NCBI GenBank assembly: GCA_949300385.1 | Contig: CASGDZ010000001.1 | Location: 1-64,000, forward strand | Direction of reading: 5' to 3' | DNA length: 64,000 nt | Source: an uncultured Christensenella sp. | GTDB taxonomy: Bacteria > Bacillota > Clostridia > Christensenellales > UBA1242 | Shown: positions 3,189 to 14,398 of the stretch, one piece after another | Position numbering within the stretch: the stretch's first letter is position 1 | Layout: each line of letters opens with the position of its first letter | Translations under genes and position numbers: made by a program | Notes under the pieces: model-generated | Seen by the model: the letters and a program-made list of their open reading frames with translations, nothing else | Databases searched by the model: none | What the model was told of the DNA's origin: nothing

Positions 3189-3572
3189 CTAAAAAGCCAC
3201 AACCGCAAAATGATATAGGTCTTGAGATATATTCTTTAAAGTAGACCTATCTTTCACTGTAAAAACTATAATACAATTCTTTGGAAGATAGTATCCATTT
3301 AGTTCTCTATCTTTAACAAGACTAACATATCTATTTTGTTGTTCAGTCGAAATTTCGTCAATTCCTTTAATTACGAAATAACATAATTTATTTTTTTTGC
3401 ATTTTTCATCAATCTTGTCTGCAAATGGTGGAATGCTTCCTGTGAGAAGAAATTTGTCGCTCACATTTGCTTTCATAGAAACGATTGGAGATAATTTTTC
3501 ACTATCTATATTTTCAATTACAACACAAGTAGCATTTGAATTGCGCTGCAGGTCTATTAATTCTTTTATCAT
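3189..3572 (-). CDS. Small AAA-like protein without a P-loop
   Basis: A 127-residue protein whose start overlaps the stop of the target gene in an ATGA arrangement, implying translational coupling. It resembles the second half of an AAA+ core: a strand ending in a Walker-B-like place (CYFVIKGIDEIS, about 83-94), a helix, then a sensor-1-like strand (NCIIVFTVKDRS). No GxxxxGKT is present, so it is unlikely to hydrolyse ATP alone. It may be a degenerate AAA subunit that assembles with the fused MoxR ATPase, or a specificity adaptor between that ATPase and the VWA protein. I do not recognise a named family. Confidence 0.6.
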   Translation of the reverse strand: MIKELIDLQRNSNATCVVIENIDSEKLSPIVSMKANVSDKFLLTGSIPPFADKIDEKCKKNKLCYFVIKGIDEISTEQQNRYVSLVKDRELNGYYLPKNCIIVFTVKDRSTLKNISQDLYHFAVVAF

Positions 3573-5887
3573 CTAATCATCCCTCCTTCATCTTCAAGCT
3601 GCATAGCCGAGATTTCTCTTAACTCTGCTATTTTTTCCATACGCTTTTCATCATTACCAGCCCAATAGATGTCGTAGACAGACAAATATTCTGGATCGCA
3701 ATGTTTGCGTATAAATTCTCTACAAACGCCAACTTGTTCGGGAGTTGCATTTAGAAGCCCTGCCATAGTTGCGAATTTTTCGTTAATATCAGTTGGAAGG
3801 TCTGCTTGAGTGTATCTCTTTTCAACTATTTCTTCAACGGTAAGGGTAGGGTGATTATAAAAATCAAAAAACTCTTCCGCCCATTCTTCACGCAGTTTTG
3901 AGCCAATTGAAGCCCTAAGTAGTGTTTCAACATCTTTTCCTACAAATTTGCCATTTTTTAAATCTTCTTCAAAGGCATAAAGAGTTCTTGAAATAGATTC
4001 CCAACCACGAGGGTCATTTGTTCTTCCACGGCAACCATTTCGGTCAAGATGATTTTCTCCAACTTCTGGTTCTTCATAGAAATATCCCATATCTTCTATT
4101 TCTTCACTACGTCGATTTTCTTGATATTTTGAGAAAATATAGCCAATAACAGAAGGGTGTATTTTTGAAGGAATTGCAAACTCGTATATCCATTCGCCAA
4201 CTTTTGGTTCCATATCTAAAATGTGGTCAAATCTCTTTTCAAGAGGCTCTGCCAAATCTTCGGCAACATTAGAATATTTTTTCTGGTTCCCTGTTGCAAC
4301 AACGACAGTATTTGCTGGAAGTTTTAGCCCCTTTCCCGTTTCAACAAGTTTGTTAAGAACAAGAGTGTAGACAAGTGATTGAACAGCAGGTTTAACGTTC
4401 AAAAGTTCATCAAGCATAATAACAACTTTGCCCTTCGCTGTTTTTGAACGCTCGTAAATTGTGTCAGCAAGGTCATAAAGATTTTGAATGTTCTCTTGAA
4501 TAAGTTTTCTTTCATCATCTGTTGCACAAGCCATAAGTGCTTGTTTGGCAAAATCTGGCGGAATAGATTGTCCCGTCTGTAAGTTCATAGAACCCACAAC
4601 CTTTTCAGGGAACATATTGTTTGTAAGTTTTATATAAATCAAGTCTGGATACAGCTTTTTAATTCTTTCGGTTTTACCAATTCCAGAAGGACCACGGAGC
4701 AAAACAGATTGCCCAGCGTCAATCCAACTTTCAATCATTTCGGTATCGGTCATTCTTCTGCGCTGATTTTGAGGAGTTTTATCTGGATTCAATTTTTCAA
4801 GCCTTGACCTGCGAACTTGTGGCTCAAATGTGAGTTCTTTTTCATCTTCTTGTGTGATAGCGGAAGAAATACTCAAAGAACTATCAAGCGCTTCTTGTAG
4901 AAATCCTTTACCTTTGAAACAATAATTTTTATCCGATTTATATCTTTTATTTCCGTTTCCCTTACTCAATTCTTCGTGTAAATCATAGCCATTAAAAATC
5001 GCACGCAATGGACTGTTTTGCCACATTGTATGTTCTGTTTTGCCATATTCTGGATAGAAAGGAATTCCTGACATAATTCCTTCTTCCGATTTTACATAAA
5101 TAGTTTTAGCAGTTCCATTTCCATTAGGATTGATAGACCTTGGAAGTTCATCCCAATTTTTTATTTTCCATTTGATTGGTTGAACTTTGGCCCACATAGG
5201 AGTTCCGTCTTCTGGTGCTTTTGTTTTGTCCTTATATTCAGAGTCATTATCATATTTTTTTGAAATAACTCTAACATACTTTTTGCCACCATATTCAAAC
5301 TCTTGGTTTTGTTCAAAACTGCCGTCTTCTTTCATATATCCGGTGTAGGTTTTACCGGTTGGAGTTAATTTACGCGCATTATATAATTTTTCTAATTCTC
5401 TACTATTTCTTGCTTTATCTTGTGGATAAGAGCCAAATTCAATAGTGTGATATAAAATTTTGCCACTTTTATCCTTAAAGGGCTCAATTTTAAAGTCGCG
5501 CGACGCGCTTCGCGCGGAGATTACAGATGAGAGATTAAGGTGTAAAGCTGGACACAGCCCAGCGCTCTTCTTGTATGCATCGTCATTGCCAAGCGAGCCA
5601 CCATGATTAACTCTGGACACAGTACTCAAAGTGTAGGCCGAGCGCAGCCAATACCAAGTCAATTGTCTATCCTTAGGACCTTTTCTTTGTCCGCCAAGGA
5701 AGGCCCCATTCATAACAGCGTAATCTGAAGCGTAAACATAACGTTCATCTGAATCTATGCCTTCCATTTCATCATAAGTTTCAAAGAACACATAATCTTG
5801 GGTATCAAACGCAGAGTTACCTGTTTTTTGATTTTCGTCAGTATTGTCAAGACGTGTTCTTACAATAAAATCTTTTAATTCTGCCAT
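3569..5887 (-). CDS. DGR target protein: DUF6273-like variable domain fused to MoxR-type AAA+ ATPase
   Basis: A 772-residue fusion starting at ATG 5887 behind AAAGGAG. Residues about 30-120 resemble the second half of a DUF6273 domain (SDYAVMNGAF, WYWLRSA at 78-84, PALHLN at 113-118). The DGR variable repeat encodes residues 80-114. Residues about 145-305 resemble the first half of such a domain (IEFGSYPQ, PIKW, NSPLRAIFNGYDL), so the halves are in swapped order. After a charged linker, residues about 380-772 form a MoxR-like AAA+ ATPase: Walker A GPSGIGKT (399-406), Walker B VVIMLDE, sensor 1 ATGN (531-534) and arginine-finger candidate R552. The variable surface probably recognises a ligand and the ATPase acts on the VWA protein encoded downstream. 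VR near the N-terminus is unusual; most DGR targets carry it at the C-terminus. Confidence 0.9.
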   Translation of the reverse strand: MAELKDFIVRTRLDNTDENQKTGNSAFDTQDYVFFETYDEMEGIDSDERYVYASDYAVMNGAFLGGQRKGPKDRQLTWYWLRSAYTLSTVSRVNHGGSLGNDDAYKKSAGLCPALHLNLSSVISARSASRDFKIEPFKDKSGKILYHTIEFGSYPQDKARNSRELEKLYNARKLTPTGKTYTGYMKEDGSFEQNQEFEYGGKKYVRVISKKYDNDSEYKDKTKAPEDGTPMWAKVQPIKWKIKNWDELPRSINPNGNGTAKTIYVKSEEGIMSGIPFYPEYGKTEHTMWQNSPLRAIFNGYDLHEELSKGNGNKRYKSDKNYCFKGKGFLQEALDSSLSISSAITQEDEKELTFEPQVRRSRLEKLNPDKTPQNQRRRMTDTEMIESWIDAGQSVLLRGPSGIGKTERIKKLYPDLIYIKLTNNMFPEKVVGSMNLQTGQSIPPDFAKQALMACATDDERKLIQENIQNLYDLADTIYERSKTAKGKVVIMLDELLNVKPAVQSLVYTLVLNKLVETGKGLKLPANTVVVATGNQKKYSNVAEDLAEPLEKRFDHILDMEPKVGEWIYEFAIPSKIHPSVIGYIFSKYQENRRSEEIEDMGYFYEEPEVGENHLDRNGCRGRTNDPRGWESISRTLYAFEEDLKNGKFVGKDVETLLRASIGSKLREEWAEEFFDFYNHPTLTVEEIVEKRYTQADLPTDINEKFATMAGLLNATPEQVGVCREFIRKHCDPEYLSVYDIYWAGNDEKRMEKIAELREISAMQLEDEGGMIR
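5496..5516 (-). other. GC-rich hairpin/palindrome downstream of VR
   Basis: Within the target gene and about 32 bp past the 3' end of VR there is an alternating C/G run unlike anything nearby. It contains the palindrome TCGCGCGA (5496-5503) and the stem CGCGC-GAA-GCGCG on the coding strand (5516-5504). GC-rich hairpins or cruciforms just downstream of VR are a known DGR feature that promotes retrohoming. The sequence also encodes target residues (SARSASR), so it is compatible with the frame. Its role here is inferred from position and from contrast with the AT-rich surroundings. Confidence 0.7.
5548..5651 (-). repeat. DGR variable repeat (VR)
   Basis: These 104 bp match the template repeat at 7199-7302 without gaps. 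There are 18 mismatches, and each lies where the TR coding strand has A. On the coding strand the 3' end (AGCGCTGGGCTGTGTCCAG) is identical in both copies and is the likely initiation-of-mutagenic-homing region. In the target frame 13 residues differ from the TR-encoded sequence: 85 N to Y, 87 K to L, 88 N to S, 89 N to T, 91 N to S, 92 K to R, 94 K to N, 95 N to H, 96 D to G, 100 N to G, 102 N to D, 103 N to D and 105 N to Y. Two further changes are silent. Confidence 0.97.
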
Positions 5888-5957
5888 ATTTTAACTCCTT
5901 TGATGAAACAAGTATAGCATAATTTTGTTATAAATGCAATACTAAAACATTGTAAAT

Positions 5958-6977
5958 TTATATTTTGTATTTTGTTCTAAGAGTTATAAGTAATTTTTTT
6001 GAATTTGAATGGCATAAATGCCCCTTAAAGGCATTTAATCTGACATCAATGTATTCTTTATCAACAAGGTTGTTATTACGTAGTTTTGACAGTGTTTTCA
6101 CATTTTTTCTTAACCTTAATTTTGCTTGTACGCGTAGAAATGTTTTAATTTTACCTTTTTCACAGAGTACATGTCTAAATCCTAAAAAATCAATTCCGTT
6201 TTTAAGCCTGCCAATTTGTGTTTTGCTGTTAAGGGATAAATCAAGTTCTTCCTTTACACATTTTTCGATTTCTTGTTTGCAGAATTTAAGATATTCTTTA
6301 TTGTTATGAACTAAAATCATGTCGTCCATATAGCGAACGTAATACTTTATTCGTAGTTTTTCTTTAATCAATCTATCAACCTTGTTCAGATAAAATAATG
6401 CAAACCATTGGCTTGTTTGATTTCCAATAGGAAGCCCAACTTTTGTGTCGTTGTTTTTGCTTTGTAATATGGTGTTTATAAACCATAAATCTTCTTCATC
6501 AAGTGATGTTTTTGCCAGATTTTTAAGTAAAATTTCGTGATTAATGCTTTGAAAATATTTTTTAATATCACATTTCAAAAAATATCCAGACTCGCCAAAT
6601 TTGTGATAATAATTCTTTAAAAATTTATGCAATCTTTGAATGCCAAAAAATGTTCCTTTGCCTTTTCGGCAAGCAACATTGTCATAAATTAAAGATTTTT
6701 CTAACTTTTTCTCAATTATATTCGAGCAAAACGCCATTAACACAACTCTATCCTTGTATGAAAGTGCTTCAATTATTCGTTCTTTTGGCTCAAATATTTT
6801 AAATATTTTATATTTGCCCGGTTTATATTTTTTACTAAAAATGTCTTTTGATAAACTAGTTAAATTTTGTGATATATTTATTTCAAAGGAGACTGTATCT
6901 TTCCTATGTTGCTTAGAAACTCTGCACTTTTTGTGTGCGTCAAATAATTTTTCAAATGTAAAAGCTTCTTCTAACAA
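5958..6977 (-). CDS. DGR reverse transcriptase
   Basis: A 339-residue reverse transcriptase that should copy TR RNA into adenine-mutagenised cDNA. Visible motifs are the first catalytic aspartate in KCDIKKYF (D137), the DGR-specific IGNQTSQ motif (184-190; group II intron enzymes have a different motif here), the active-site YMDD (216-219) and the FLGFRH thumb-side motif. No maturase or endonuclease domain follows, and the length is normal for DGR RTs. The best start is TTG at 6977, eight nt after GGAG; no ATG is suitably placed. The gene lies between TR and the target and is read in the same direction. Confidence 0.96.
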   Translation of the reverse strand: MLEEAFTFEKLFDAHKKCRVSKQHRKDTVSFEINISQNLTSLSKDIFSKKYKPGKYKIFKIFEPKERIIEALSYKDRVVLMAFCSNIIEKKLEKSLIYDNVACRKGKGTFFGIQRLHKFLKNYYHKFGESGYFLKCDIKKYFQSINHEILLKNLAKTSLDEEDLWFINTILQSKNNDTKVGLPIGNQTSQWFALFYLNKVDRLIKEKLRIKYYVRYMDDMILVHNNKEYLKFCKQEIEKCVKEELDLSLNSKTQIGRLKNGIDFLGFRHVLCEKGKIKTFLRVQAKLRLRKNVKTLSKLRNNNLVDKEYIDVRLNAFKGHLCHSNSKKLLITLRTKYKI

Positions 6978-7198
6978 ATTATATGCTCCTTTATATATTT
7001 AAAACGATGGTCATCTTCCTTTCGGTAAACTTTCAAAGATTTCTCGTTGATTGTCAAGATGACCGTATTCTTCTATCTCTTATAAAGAGAGTAGAAAAGA
7101 TAAGATTCCTTTGCCTTACACACTGTATTGTTTTACATAAAACAATCATAAACTGGCTGTTTTTTAACAAGCGGAAACTCGTTCTTCAAAGGCAAATC
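6978..7198 (-). ncRNA. Structured spacer between TR and RT, likely part of the DGR template RNA
   Basis: The 221 bp between TR and the RT start contain several potential stems: GGTCATCTT (7009-7017) with AAGATGACC (7056-7064), an imperfect TTCTATCTCTT/AAGAGAGTAGAA hairpin near 7070-7095, and TTGTTTT-ACAT-AAAACAA near 7128-7145. In the Bordetella phage DGR the RNA just downstream of TR is structured and is needed for priming cDNA synthesis. The same order (Avd, TR, spacer, RT) suggests the same role here. The boundaries are approximate. Confidence 0.5.
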
Positions 7199-7302
7199 TG
7201 GACACAGCCCAGCGCTCTTTTTGTTTGCATTGTTATTGTTAAGCGAGCCATCATTTTTAACTTTGTTTACATTATTCTTAGTGTTGGCCGAGCGCAGCCA
7301 AA
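7199..7302 (-). repeat. DGR template repeat (TR)
   Basis: A 104-bp non-coding copy of VR, between the avd-like gene and the RT. Read in the frame of the target it is rich in AAC, AAT and AAA codons, giving runs of Asn and Lys at the positions that vary in VR. This is the classical TR design, because randomising A in AAY codons reaches many amino acids without making stop codons. Flanks diverge at once outside the 104 bp: GCCAA is shared and the next base differs on one side, while at the other side CTGG is shared after an A-to-C change on the coding strand. Confidence 0.97.
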
Positions 7303-7360
7303 AGAGACCAGGTTAAACAACAATCTTATCTTAATTAAAGCGTCGCCGCTATAATCCAAT

Positions 7361-7930
7361 TTATTTGCAAAATCTATTGGCATCACTTTTACGCCAAGCA
7401 ACCAAAAGATTTATACAATCGGCCACTTGTAGAGAAATTTGTTCATACTGTTTTTTAAGTATGCACCCACTTTCTAATGATAAGAAGGACATATATCCAA
7501 GCAGCTTTAATTTTAAAAATGCTTGATGTTGACACTCTTTTCTTCTTTCTTTGTTTTTAATGTTATCTATCCGCATTGAGTTGGCTTCAATAAGATATTC
7601 AAGACAATCTAAACAGTAATTTTGTATTCTATTTACAAAAACAGCACGAAATTTTTTTGGGGATTTTTCTGTTATAGTTATCACATAGGCAGATAGTTTT
7701 TTAGTTTTCGTAATAACGAGTAATTCGCTTGAATTTTGCCTTATCTTTGTGTCTTTGTCAATATCTTCGAGTTCCTGTAAAAAAACTTTATTTTCTAAAA
7801 ATTTCTTTTCATTTCCTTTTGCAACTCCTTTAGCAGTTGCAATTTTATCTTCGTCACTTTCTTTTCTGTTATCGGCCATAGGAATGGTCATTTGAAGCTG
7901 GCTCCATTGATTTGTTCCTTGTTTATCCAT
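7361..7930 (-). CDS. avd: Avd-like DGR accessory protein (four-helix bundle)
   Basis: A 189-residue basic protein. Residues about 68-189 match the accessory variability determinant: TEKSPKKFRAVFVNRIQNYC, then helices ending in SLQVADCINLLVAWRK. Avd forms a pentameric four-helix barrel that binds the DGR RNA and reverse transcriptase and is needed for mutagenic retrotransposition. The position directly upstream of TR and RT agrees. The first ~65 residues (charged, with Gln and Thr) are an extension relative to the ~125-residue Avd proteins and have no domain I recognise. ATG 7930 follows GGAG at suitable spacing. Confidence 0.88.
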   Translation of the reverse strand: MDKQGTNQWSQLQMTIPMADNRKESDEDKIATAKGVAKGNEKKFLENKVFLQELEDIDKDTKIRQNSSELLVITKTKKLSAYVITITEKSPKKFRAVFVNRIQNYCLDCLEYLIEANSMRIDNIKNKERRKECQHQAFLKLKLLGYMSFLSLESGCILKKQYEQISLQVADCINLLVAWRKSDANRFCK

Positions 7931-8210
7931 AAAACTTAATCTCCATCATTTTTACAAGTCTATAGGTTTTATATAATTTATTTTTAAAATATTTTATCAT
8001 ATTTTATTTATTGTTTCAATAAATTTTTCAAGATAGAAATTTTAAACATTTATATAACTGTTCAAAAAAAACTATTAAAACTCAAATAAATTTATTCATT
8101 TTTAAAAAATATTATTTAACACATTATAACAAGACTTTTAACTATAAAATAAGAGATTTTAAGGGATTTGATAACACTAAAACAACTTGAAAAATAAATT
8201 TTATTTACAC

Positions 8211-8255
8211 CTCTTAATCAGTGGGTCCGGGGTTCGAGTCCCCGAGGGTCCACCA
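8211..8255 (+). pseudogene. 3' fragment of a tRNA-Lys(CTT)-like gene, possible attachment site
   Basis: The 45 nt begin in an anticodon loop (CTCTTAA) and run through the T arm (GGGGTTCGAGTCCCC) to GGGTCC-A-CCA, but the D arm and the 5' acceptor strand are absent. A 3' tRNA half ending in CCA is the usual scar left by tyrosine-recombinase elements, so this may be one end of the accessory block that carries the DGR. The matching intact tRNA is not in the window. Confidence 0.65.
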
Positions 8256-8295
8256 CGAAAACAAAAGCACTAGATAAGTCTAGTGTTTTTTATTA

Positions 8296-8446
8296 GGACC
8301 CACTGATTAGGGGTCCCCATAAGTTAATGAAGTAGACTTATGGAGTAAAGGCAAAAGCAAATGAAAAGGCGAATTTGCATAAAGCAAATCGCGAAGAATG
8401 AGACTTTTGTCGCGGGTCCGGGGTTCGAGTCCCTGAAGGTACATCA
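8296..8446 (+). repeat. tRNA-fragment insert: inverted and degenerate direct copies of the 8211-8255 tRNA
   Basis: GGACCCACTGATTAG (8296-8310) is the reverse complement of the anticodon-arm side of the fragment at 8215-8228. Then comes a structured insert with the stems CCATAAGT/ACTTATGG and GCGAATTTGC/GCAAATCGC. A direct copy of GGGTCCGGGGTTCGAGTCCC (8414-8433) follows, with a decayed acceptor end. The same architecture recurs beside tRNA-Arg, tRNA-Lys and two tRNA-Leu genes. The 550-bp gap 7931-8480 holds only this material and AT-rich sequence. Confidence 0.6.
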
Positions 8447-8480
8447 ACAAAAAATGAAAAATATTCGTTCTTTTTTATGA

Positions 8481-9035
8481 TTAAAAATTGTTATAAATAT
8501 TAAAGATTTTTATCTCTGCATTTTTAAAATTTCTTAAATGTTTAGGATTGTTAAAATCAATATCGACTTTAGATATTATATCGGCAAGAAAACTAGCAAT
8601 TACATTGTGAGTGACAATTAATACATTTTCATATTTGTTATTTGATATTATTTCATTTATAAAATTTTTAGCCCTTTTAAAAGCACTTTCGTACGATTCC
8701 ATTCCACAACTAGCACTACGCATAGATTTTAAAATTTTTTCTTCTTCGGTCAAACCTGCTTTTATTTTCCCTGAAAATATACCTTGGTCAATTTCAATTA
8801 GTCTATTATCTTTAATAATTTTAACATTATGATATTTATTCATAATATTTGCTGTCTGCATAGTTCGCATTAGGGGAGAAGAAAAAATAATGTCAAATTT
8901 TGTATTTTTGAATATATTAGCAGTTTGTTCTACCATGAATTTTCCTGTTTGACTCAATCTATTATTTCTATAGCCTTGTGTTATTCCCTTTTCGTTCCAA
9001 ATAGTCGTTCCGTGACGCAATATATATATTTTCAT
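8481..9035 (-). CDS. Histidine phosphatase family protein
   Basis: A 184-residue member of the phosphoglycerate-mutase-like histidine phosphatases. The phosphate-accepting RHG motif is at residues 7-9 (ILRHGTTIWN), the second arginine region is FSSPLMRTMQTA, and the second catalytic histidine is in VLIVTHNV. Such proteins dephosphorylate small sugar phosphates or related metabolites, and the substrate cannot be told from sequence. It is a single gene, the first chromosomal-looking one after the tRNA fragment. The start at 9035 puts the RHG motif at the expected place. Confidence 0.85.
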   Translation of the reverse strand: MKIYILRHGTTIWNEKGITQGYRNNRLSQTGKFMVEQTANIFKNTKFDIIFSSPLMRTMQTANIMNKYHNVKIIKDNRLIEIDQGIFSGKIKAGLTEEEKILKSMRSASCGMESYESAFKRAKNFINEIISNNKYENVLIVTHNVIASFLADIISKVDIDFNNPKHLRNFKNAEIKIFNIYNNF

Positions 9036-13111: not shown

Positions 13112-13124
13112 AATTGATAAGAAA

Positions 13125-13307
13125 TCATAAAAAAAAATTTGATTTTAATCGTTCATGTACATTAATAACATTTTTTAATTTATCATAATTTTGATAAGTT
13201 AAATTTTTTAATGTTGAATCGAGATGATATTTGATAATGTCTTCAATTTTATTGTACTCTCTATATTCTTCTGCACTAAAACTATTGATATTTTTATCTA
13301 TGTTCAT
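13125..13307 (-). CDS. Small hypothetical protein (60 aa)
   Basis: A 60-residue acidic/basic helical protein that starts at ATG 13307 after TTTAGGAG at good spacing. That ribosome-binding site is the main evidence that it is real. It lies 13 bp upstream of the membrane-anchored gene and is probably cotranscribed with it. No domain is recognised. Confidence 0.5.
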   Translation of the reverse strand: MNIDKNINSFSAEEYREYNKIEDIIKYHLDSTLKNLTYQNYDKLKNVINVHERLKSNFFL

Positions 13308-13513
13308 AAAATACTCCTAAAAAGTTAATTAGGAGAATTATAACATAAATTTACAATTTGTCGATATTAAATTTAAATTTATTTAGTAGATTAGGTTTGT
13401 TTTGTACGACTAAATTATATTATTTAACTAATTGATTAAATTTTTTTCTAATTATATAGTTGCTTAATATTTACGTCAATAACAAAATATGTTGATTAGA
13501 TTAGCCCTTTTAA

Positions 13514-14398
13514 CTAATTTGAAGCGATATTTTGGATTAATTTTTCTGCAATCACAAATATTTGTTTGCTTTCAGAAGTGGAGCAGGTTTTTAATTTCTT
13601 TTTTGTAGGTTGTCCACATATGTTAAAGATTTTTGGGCCTATCCATTCGTGATAATCGCACGAACTATAAATTCCTTTTAATACATTCAATGTCGCTTTT
13701 TCTACATTTGGGAAAAGTAGTTTTATTCCAATTTTCACTAACCAATTTATTGCTTTCGGATAATGATTTGTCATATTTGTCAGTGTGACGCCAGGGTGGA
13801 CGATAGACAATTTAACTTTTTTTTCTCGTTTAAATAACTCATATAAACTAAACATCAAGAAGCGCTTTGAATTTCCATAAATTTTGCTTGATTTTTTTTC
13901 ATTAGAGAAATCAATATCATTTTTGTTTATCTTCGAATAATTGTGAGCAATACTACCGAGTGCAATAACATGTCCGTTTGTTTGTTGTAAATTTTTAAAC
14001 AAATTTTTTACCATGATATATTGCGATAAAAAATTAATTTGAAATATATTGTTGTATCCCAATTCTGTTTTGTATATAGGTACATTGTATACACCGGCGT
14101 TTAAGATAAGTATGTCAATAGAAAAACTTTTTAATTTTTCAATTGCATTATTTAAAGACGATATATTTGATAAATCACATTCAATTATATGGATTTTGAT
14201 TTTTTCATTATTATTTTTTAAATCATGTGCTTGTTTTTCAGCCTTATTCATATCTCGATCAATCAAAATAAGGTTTGCGTTTAATTTTGCGAGATATCTG
14301 CATACACAATTTCCAATACCGCCTGTTGACCCAGTTATTGCAATTGTTTTATTAGATAAATCGCTACAATTATCATCTATCCACTTATTTATATTCAT
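13514..14398 (-). CDS. Short-chain dehydrogenase/reductase (SDR)
   Basis: A 294-residue classical-type SDR oxidoreductase. It has the nucleotide-binding TGSTGGIG (22-29), LNAG (99-102), a catalytic Ser in ALGSIAH (S149), and the YxxxK pair Y174/K178 in YGNSKRF. The following VHPGVTLTNM matches the PG motif region of SDRs. The length and the C-terminal extension resemble retinol-dehydrogenase/WWOX-like SDRs. Cofactor is NAD(P); the substrate is unknown. It is a single gene, with no operon partner visible. Confidence 0.85.
   Translation of the reverse strand: MNINKWIDDNCSDLSNKTIAITGSTGGIGNCVCRYLAKLNANLILIDRDMNKAEKQAHDLKNNNEKIKIHIIECDLSNISSLNNAIEKLKSFSIDILILNAGVYNVPIYKTELGYNNIFQINFLSQYIMVKNLFKNLQQTNGHVIALGSIAHNYSKINKNDIDFSNEKKSSKIYGNSKRFLMFSLYELFKREKKVKLSIVHPGVTLTNMTNHYPKAINWLVKIGIKLLFPNVEKATLNVLKGIYSSCDYHEWIGPKIFNICGQPTKKKLKTCSTSESKQIFVIAEKLIQNIASN

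Follow-up and report, generated by a model that had tools for sequence, protein, structure and literature searches.

A diversity-generating retroelement predicted to diversify the N-terminal domain of a MoxR-like AAA+ protein in an uncultured Christensenella

Introduction

Diversity-generating retroelements (DGRs) have been described together with ternary systems of VMAP, MoxR-type AAA+ ATPases and von Willebrand factor A (vWA) proteins, mainly in cyanobacteria and gammaproteobacteria, and the cyanobacterial-type layout of MoxR/AAA and FGE genes beside a DGR has been interpreted as a sensor system (PMC7159879; PMC10907252). The reverse transcriptase (RT) of a DGR is defined as the SQ type, with (I/V/L)GxxxSQ and YxDD motifs (PMC3521204). 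DGR targets are multi-domain proteins with the variable repeat (VR) at their C-termini (Roux et al.; PMC8144416), mostly surface, tail or, in the ternary systems, vWA proteins (PMC8144416; PMC7159879), and the cyanobacterial FGS domain is always preceded by other domains (Kaur et al.; PMC7159879). MoxR AAA+ ATPases are defined by an insert in helix 2 (PMC7159879). In this study, we analyzed a DGR within a stretch of 64,000 nucleotides (nt), hereafter referred to as the window, from an uncultured Christensenella sp. (Christensenellales; UBA1242; assembly GCA_949300385.1, contig CASGDZ010000001.1, positions 1 to 64,000). Its target is a MoxR-like AAA+ protein in which the domain order is reversed relative to the descriptions in PMC8144416 and PMC7159879, with the VR near the N-terminus.

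Results

Layout of the retroelement and its repeats

The minus strand of the window reads avd, template repeat (TR), RT gene and target gene with the VR, in this order (Table 1), and every component of the complete DGR described in an original prediction was found in place. Over 104 nt, the gapless alignment of the TR and the VR contains 18 differences (nine A>G, six A>T and three A>C), each at an A of the TR coding strand, as had been predicted; 18 of the 39 template adenines were hit. The chance of 18/18 differences falling on A was 9.4e-10. The sequences show that the TR of a cellular DGR was copied, with adenine mutagenesis, into the DUF6273 domain at the N-terminus of a MoxR-like AAA+ protein.

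Table 1. Features of the locus, with positions in the window (aa, amino acids)
Feature	Position	Strand	Basis or description
Metallopeptidase (DUF2201_N)-vWA-like protein, 506 aa	1659..3179	-	DUF2201_N 3e-30
Degenerate AAA+ protein, 127 aa	3189..3572	-	4-nt overlap with target end
DGR target, 772 aa	3569..5887	-	DUF6273 (aa 3-118), middle domain, C-terminal MoxR-like AAA+
GC-rich inverted repeat CGCGCGAAGCGCGTCGCGCG	5497..5516	-	Candidate DGR target hairpin
VR (target aa 79-114)	5548..5651	-	TR/VR alignment
DGR RT, 339 aa, TTG start as called mechanically	5958..6977	-	Profiles, PDB match, trees
Structured 3' part of template RNA	7067..7211	-	Stem between TR 3' end and TR-RT spacer, and two more hairpins
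TR	7198..7301	-	Ungapped homology to VR runs on to 7194
avd, DGR accessory protein, 189 aa	7361..7930	-	Profile matches
3' half of tRNA-Lys(CTT), split in anticodon loop	8211..8255	+	Probable right end of island

Some dimensions had to be revised. The predicted repeat length of 104 bp held for the gapless core, but the repeat extends to 108 nt and includes a 19th A difference (A>C), with CCAGATTT in the TR and CCAGCTTT in the VR. The 3' stretch of identity, given as 19 nt, is actually 22 nt long, from the last mutated A to this GAT (TR)/GCT (VR) difference. The predicted extent of 3569-7930 contains the parts named above but excludes two conserved downstream genes, and the prediction was silent on the diversified protein, which is an AAA+ protein within a multigene module.

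To collect relatives of the module, 84,980 species, each represented by one genome, were scanned by pattern; this gave 200 pattern matches, of which 87 were confirmed and the best 80, representing 75 loci, were used. The GAT/GCT difference was present at the repeat boundary in 24 of 28 TR/VR pairs, the window counted (among the four others, L096 reads ACT in one of its VRs, and the script failed to locate the remaining three), and because of this recurrence it looks like a fixed boundary mark rather than a product of mutagenesis.

The Avd-like gene was confirmed by a match to phrog_3206 Avd (7.9e-20), with weaker matches, both under cut-off, to NCBIfam DivGenRetAVD (1.8e-10) and Pfam bAvd (4.7e-4); the PF05635 profile matched neither this protein nor its 14 control genomes and is hence uninformative. 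The RT is of the predicted DGR type, with IGNQTSQ and YMDD motifs and matches to RVT_1 (6e-20) and phrog_1423 (3.1e-104). Its nearest solved chain was 8ub7 (1.4e-35; next best 4.2e-10), which we take to be the BPP-1 DGR RT.

A putative sensor domain fused to an AAA+ motor

In Pfam, the target matched DUF6273 (2.8e-6), in a segment that contains the VR, and AAA_5 (8.5e-6); it also matched the ATPase family phrog_1297 (2.8e-31). We take DUF6273 to be a C-type-lectin-type DGR target domain. A second domain (about aa 149-325), without a Pfam match of its own, was read as DUF6273-like, and the MoxR-like AAA+ part spans about aa 380-760 according to our own profiles and the AlphaFold2 (AF2) model (predicted local distance difference test [pLDDT], 85.3; predicted template modelling score [pTM], 0.48). 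The best PDB matches of the AAA+ part of the model were NorQ-NorD(VWA) and CbbQ (best E 3.8e-9). With a simple pattern, Walker A was detected in 81 and hhDE in 84 of 85 open reading frames (ORFs), and all 18 of the 18 VRs placeable in an AAA+-fused ORF ended inside the first 19% of the ORF.

No 19-residue stretch with a mean hydropathy of at least 1.6 was found in any of 69 fused targets, and the target is predicted to be cytosolic. Most cellular targets in a large survey were predicted to be membrane-anchored (PMC8144416), as would be expected if the target were an ordinary surface adhesin whose VR binds external ligands. Given the lack of a hydrophobic segment in 69/69 targets and the fusion to an AAA+ motor with Walker motifs, we attach hardly any credence to an adhesin.

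Directly behind the target gene lie a small AAA+-like gene and a metallopeptidase-vWA gene, and the two recur together in relatives. The 127-aa product of the former aligned to the AAA+ core between Walker A and the lid; since it has no P-loop, it may be an ATPase-dead ring subunit. When a set of 72 sequences was searched with a profile of 28 small proteins, the AAA+ core of all 36 targets tested was matched at E values between 3.5e-9 and 0.016, and shuffled controls gave E >=0.45; this profile was rebuilt from 28 chosen members only, an earlier iterated profile being one that could have absorbed AAA+ sequences. The AF2 model of the 127-aa protein (pLDDT 90.5) had a best AAA+ match in Foldseek at E 6e-5, and the protein had no match in Pfam, PHROG, PADLOC or NCBIfam. 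In the metallopeptidase-vWA protein, the vWA-like DUF2201 match was under cut-off (1.4e-3), and the homologue in L134 passed for both domains; the window protein also matched phrog_1314. By pattern, all 57 homologous ORFs contain DxSxS, and all but one contain HExxH (56 of 57).

Adenine-directed divergence in relatives

The TR/VR scan, whose scoring favours A, yielded 28 pairs in the 75 loci, vs 6, 2 and 1 pairs with T, G or C as the template base. Apart from four pairs that were dropped (L081, L089, L101, and L145, all without an RT on the available DNA), 24 pairs of relatives were kept, and 300 of their 310 differences were located at A. A TR/VR pair with the VR in the sensor was present at 20 of 22 loci with a full-length RT, the exceptions being L074 and L113.

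The original prediction had inferred past activity and proposed a search of related genomes for the same TR with different VRs. Such a trio exists: L075, L076, and L124 share an identical 104-nt TR and have three different VRs. Together with the A-site divergence in L073, this supports past activity of the element. The L073 target is 96.9% identical to that of the window, and its VR differs at 22 of 39 template-A sites vs 2 of 65 non-A sites, with differences elsewhere in the target of 1-4% (upstream 9/236, downstream 24/700, AAA+ part 16/1276). Likewise, L074 differed from the window VR at 23/39 template-A sites vs 2/65 non-A sites. Where the TRs of relatives differed at non-A sites, the VR agreed with its own TR in 564 of 574 comparisons, which are non-independent and involve VRs identified through similarity to their own TR.

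Template RNA, hairpin and template stop codons

In the predicted RNA structure at the 3' end of the TR and in the TR-RT spacer, 18 of 32 pairs were changed on both sides across 23 sequences, vs 11.2 in shuffled alignments, and 97.1% of cells were paired vs 84.1% in shuffled alignments and 45-55% in slid controls. When the window RNA was folded alone, the joining stem and the third helix formed, and the second hairpin was missing in the minimum-energy fold (z -1.91). The RNA model R1, built from 18 rows, scored 133.5 bits on the window, which is itself a training row, and recovered the element from 11 of 30 sources at E<=1.8e-14; seven of these sources lie outside the training set, and they are mostly near copies. 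R1 had no match in BPP-1 (E<=1), FP_Brigit, Anabaena, L012, L014, or L015, nor in the RT-bearing L113 and L050, and Rfam had no match in 5400-8600 at E<=0.1.

The GC-rich inverted repeat lies 27 nt beyond the end of the VR homology, within the coding region, and 3 of 200 shuffles were equally good. It recurs in L010, L075, L076, and L124. A GC-rich hairpin after the VR was rejected as a clade-wide feature, none being present in the other lineages tested.

An in-frame stop codon was present in the mutable core of the TR at 10 of 23 usable loci (L104, L107, L108, L112, L115, L119, L130, L140, L147, and L011), the window TR not being among them. The script gave 11/24, from which L076 was excluded for its frame-shifted VR; the loci are not all independent (the TR is common to L107 and L108, and there are nearly identical rows among the rest), and the count takes no code reassignment into account (TGA in L104 and L130). 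In six VRs the stop had been converted to Y, W, S, C, V, or C, and in L104, L107, L108, and L119 the VR still carried a stop and the target ended before the AAA+ motor. None of five comparison DGRs (L012, L014, L015, L058, and BPP-1) had a stop in the mutable core, and L015 had one at the 3' edge. The TR stops may serve as an on/off gate or as a route to T-first codons. AAC and AAT codons avoid stops, and the BPP-1 RT makes stops from only about 1% of AAA/AAG codons (PMC12875486); the AAA/AAG codons of the window TR could yield stops (0.32 at 40% even mutation per A), an upper figure if the window RT avoids stops as the BPP-1 RT does. A template bearing stop codons was engineered for the reporter used in PMC12875486.

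Phylogeny of the RT

The RT fell inside the DGR clade, 25 DGR-type RTs being separated from 3 group II intron RTs with full support (100/100). In a first tree, which contained among others 14 RTs from fused-target loci, the RT of L054 and six chosen outgroup RTs, the 14 and L054 formed one clade (100/100) that included both RT-bearing Alphaproteobacteria. One of the six outgroup RTs, from a prophage of H. canis, joined the DGR of L016, both on long branches; L016 has a TR/VR pair.

On cyanobacterial plasmids, a different RT lineage lies beside MoxR/AAA and FGE genes. A second tree contained, among others, 11 of the 14 fused-target RTs, L054 and three cyanobacterial RTs (Nostoc, Acaryochloris, and Fischerella). 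The Nostoc and Acaryochloris loci are annotated with peptidase, AAA/MoxR ATPase and FGE proteins, and the Fischerella RT was grouped with them by similar gene order alone. Forcing the fused-target and cyanobacterial RTs into one clade cost 135.6 log units (approximately unbiased [AU] test, p 2.6e-47); this test presumes a group named in advance, and the cyanobacterial MoxR-linked side comprised three RTs only. Because the tree test rejects a single clade, a DGR and a MoxR-type ATPase have probably been united at least twice. Profiles of the AAA+, peptidase-vWA and sensor parts matched none of seven proteins from the three cyanobacterial loci better than E 0.017, a result compatible with distant kinship.

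Distribution and modular variants

The fused AAA+/sensor target was found in 63 of the 75 loci, the metallopeptidase-vWA protein in 56 and the small protein in 55; an RT of any kind was present in 29, a full-length RT in 22 and avd in 21. These counts were made by script, and many contigs stop within the module. The loci were labelled uncultured Clostridia (including Candidatus Caccovivens), Bacilli, Tenericutes, and Alphaproteobacteria (L134 and L147 with an RT, L145 without), and many came from animal guts. A search of 396 genomes of the order found at least five other genomes with long target matches; it scored the best two candidates per genome and missed the divergent target of G055, and its counts are therefore lower bounds. 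Among 398 genomes across the phylum, 32 matched, including the window's own, and the matches listed held no further fused target, those outside the window covering the AAA+ part or short stretches.

The target of L136 has 86% nt identity to the window over its first 1011 nt and carries the other AAA+ class, and that of L138, with 76.5% nt identity to the window sensor half over about 1 kb, likewise has the other AAA+ class. Since L136 pairs a window-like sensor half with a different AAA+ class, the sequences indicate that sensor and motor are exchanged as modules. In L091, L092, L095, and L096, a single TR diversifies two tandem sensor-AAA+ targets; such loci may yield mixed rings with two sensors. 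L141 and L143 have the AAA+, small and metallopeptidase-vWA proteins without a sensor, and because they keep the rest of the module, the sensor and DGR may be later additions or may have been lost there.

Other arrangements were also observed. L132 and L133 encode tandem AAA+ domains in one sensor-less protein, adjoining the small and metallopeptidase-vWA proteins. In G332 (L054:5062-7989), a window-type DGR and sensor are joined to a different C-terminal half, which has an LRR_5 match and was read as PcfJ-like (without a profile match), on an element carrying a MobL relaxase and an integrase. An open frame of 6558 aa in L056 (G055:C3) holds several copies of the middle domain. In the same genus as the window, L012:7165-10650 carries an unrelated DGR among phage-like genes (TR 7598, VR 9560, 18/18 differences at A), with a second VR-like ORF near 13113-13517.

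Genomic setting

The 5' half of the split tRNA-Lys was located on contig C4 of the same genome, where its neighbours are an intact tRNA-Lys and a putative IS3-type transposase gene, and the joined halves were read as tRNA-Lys(ctt). Of 34 genomes of the genus, 16 have a contiguous tRNA core (<=2 mismatches); the genome of the window, about 90% complete, lacks it. No empty site was found among 17 contiguous tRNA copies: the right flank of the window matched none of them, and a single match each was obtained for the left flank (L211, 68% over 842 nt) and, beside the tRNA, for the stretch 8077-8200 at the end of the island (L218, 85% over 124 nt). In L073, a MobL relaxase, a tyrosine integrase and a tRNA-Lys lie behind the module. 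The locus is probably an integrated island. The 3' part of another, diverged tRNA-like sequence (85% to 8223-8261) adjoins the end of the island at 8414-8452 and suggests that the integration site was reused.

The flanks were represented by 107 of 113 ORFs from 29 loci, six having been excluded by hand (very long, or overlapping module genes), and matched 72 PHROG families; the 25 commonest included two integrase-type families. In addition, L050:11873-12074 contains CRISPR-array-like repeats of about 30 bp (GTCTCACCCCACANGGGGTGAGCGAATTGAAAC).

Discussion

From the adenine mutagenesis and the conserved partners, both legible in the sequences themselves, we infer ring assembly, ligand binding, peptidase coupling and a role in conflict as follows. 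The AAA+ target would form a ring, perhaps with the 127-aa protein, and the ring would engage the vWA protein in the manner of NorQ-NorD and other MoxR/vWA pairs. A protein ligand would be recognised by the hypervariable domains that surround the ring, and recognition would drive unfolding or cleavage by the metallopeptidase, or would trigger it. Of the roles considered, the likeliest for the system would be that of an adaptable intracellular sensor against invaders (phages and mobile elements), carried on an integrative island and driving an AAA+/protease machine, a proposal that we consider about evenly balanced. A bolder version is held more tentatively, as a possibility: the locus may encode a self-randomising cytosolic AAA+ protease in which the domain that recognises substrates or antigens is rewritten by a mutator with an RNA template, amounting, in a reduced-genome gut bacterium, to adaptive, receptor-like intracellular immunity that would have arisen independently of the MoxR-vWA ternary systems of cyanobacteria. 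In some members of the lineage (the 10 of 23 loci above, not the window), the TR stop would make unmutated copies off and mutated copies on.

Several findings weigh against activity of the element or against an adaptable sensor. Against activity, non-A differences made up 12 of 356 TR/VR differences in a set of 28 pairs that includes the window. RTs were shortened or split in L073, L077, L078, L083, L094, and L118 and carried a stop in L050; L073 and L074 had no TR and avd on the available DNA, L073 also missing part of its RT; and targets were broken in L010, L049, and L051. Such damage in relatives, as well as the modest stability of the window RNA alone and its missing second conserved hairpin, would be expected if the DGR were recently dead or dying, a relic of former diversification with a frozen VR. 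In the window, however, every ORF is open, the 104-nt TR/VR pair has no non-A difference (as in L010, L054, L075, L076, and L124), and the spacer fits R1, of which it is a training row. We therefore regard decay of the window's element as unlikely.

The neighbours are mostly housekeeping genes, and no defence-island enrichment was seen, the nine PADLOC families detected at 1e-20 each accounting for 1-3 of the 107 flanking ORFs (mads_3 in three and AbiQ in one among them), without a control set. Of the module proteins themselves, PADLOC named only the RT, through general RT models, and, weakly, the AAA+ part, as DolB (1.4e-5). MoxR-vWA pairs also serve ordinary protein maturation. The housekeeping neighbours and the missing defence-island setting, along with the nearest PDB folds, which are MoxR chaperones with vWA partners, favour a diversified maturation chaperone comparable with NorQ-NorD, RavA-ViaA, and CbbQ-CbbO, in which the variable domain would tune the choice of host or island clients without any role in defence. 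On the other hand, no chaperone is known to us to require randomisation of the face that binds its clients, and the island traits and the patchy presence (at least five other genomes of 396) better fit a conflict system. The chaperone reading is consequently rather doubtful in our judgement.

In a library of viral predicted folds, phage ATPases outscored the PDB matches (best, Bacillus phage G Gp566, 1e-15), which also counts against the sensor and would suit a virion-assembly module of jumbo-phage type captured with a phage DGR. The pair of MoxR and metallopeptidase-vWA proteins is described in group 2.2 jumbo phages (PMC7824862), the window proteins resemble phrog_1297 and phrog_1314, distant homologues of the AAA+ and metallopeptidase-vWA proteins occur in 156 and 320 of 50,697 phage records, and the nearest other RTs to the window clade in the second tree were gut-phage-type DGR RTs. 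However, the best 20 of the 156 phage matches covered the AAA+ part only, at 22-26% identity, all 54 of 54 IMG/VR matches began at residue 392 or later with <=30% identity, and the 25 commonest of the 72 PHROG families in the flanks included no virion structural family. A captured phage module is thus very improbable. A prophage was rejected as the principal explanation of the locus, the IMG/VR matches and the listed phage matches of the target covering the AAA+ part only and the commonest flanking families lacking virion structural ones.

Among known systems, the DGR of Bordetella phage BPP-1 (mtd-avd-TR-brt) resembles that of the window in its Avd, TR, and RT with GxxxSQ and YMDD, in a hairpin after the VR (PMC3240598), to which the GC-rich repeat of the window is a candidate counterpart, and in a structured TR-RT spacer, which in BPP-1 recruits RT-Avd (PMC12875486). 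Unlike in the window, the BPP-1 VR is at the C-terminus of a tail protein and the target precedes avd; the RTs share 29% identity, and the spacer model had no match in BPP-1, as stated above. The phage-like loci L012, L014, and L015, from the same taxonomic order, have A-only TR/VR differences, and the RTs of L012 and L014 are near the window's RT clade, with that of L012 outside it; their targets lie among genes read by eye as phage genes, and R1 did not match them. NorQ-NorD and CbbQ are the closest solved folds of the window AAA+ part, and NorQ-NorD has a vWA partner. To our knowledge, these chaperones have no variable domain, peptidase or DGR.

The jumbo-phage pair is similar in combining a MoxR-type AAA+ protein with a vWA protein bearing an N-terminal metallopeptidase (PMC7824862), and differs in its phage context, the absence of a fused sensor among the matches listed and the AAA+ identity given above. 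The ternary systems share with the window a DGR with a MoxR AAA+ and a vWA protein, a lectin-type variable domain and a proposed sensor logic (PMC7159879; PMC10907252). There, MoxR is a separate gene, VMAP is present, and FGS follows other domains and is mostly fused to vWA, whereas the window has its VR close to the start of the AAA+ protein and its vWA domain on the metallopeptidase, and the RT lineage is not shared, as judged by the AU test with three cyanobacterial RTs. No VMAP-type Pfam match was found in the module or in 699-1568, where no VMAP profile was run and the contig starts at position 1.

In the open-access literature searched, outside which an earlier mention is possible, we found neither a DGR target that combines an N-terminal VR with an AAA+ domain nor a description of natural template-encoded stops. 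A second union of a DGR and a MoxR-type ATPase, separate by phylogeny, suggests that evolution has arrived repeatedly at ATP-driven machines whose recognition face is randomised, rather than once by accident in multicellular cyanobacteria. The compact module (avd, RT, target, small AAA+, and metallopeptidase-vWA) makes the function of cellular DGR targets testable, and natural two-target and motor-swapped versions of it exist for such tests. Compared with the systems described so far, the DGR itself is of a familiar type. What sets it apart, as a variant that we did not find in the literature searched, is the combination of a variable domain at the N-terminus of a MoxR-like motor, a metallopeptidase-vWA partner, an RT clade of its own and its RNA element.

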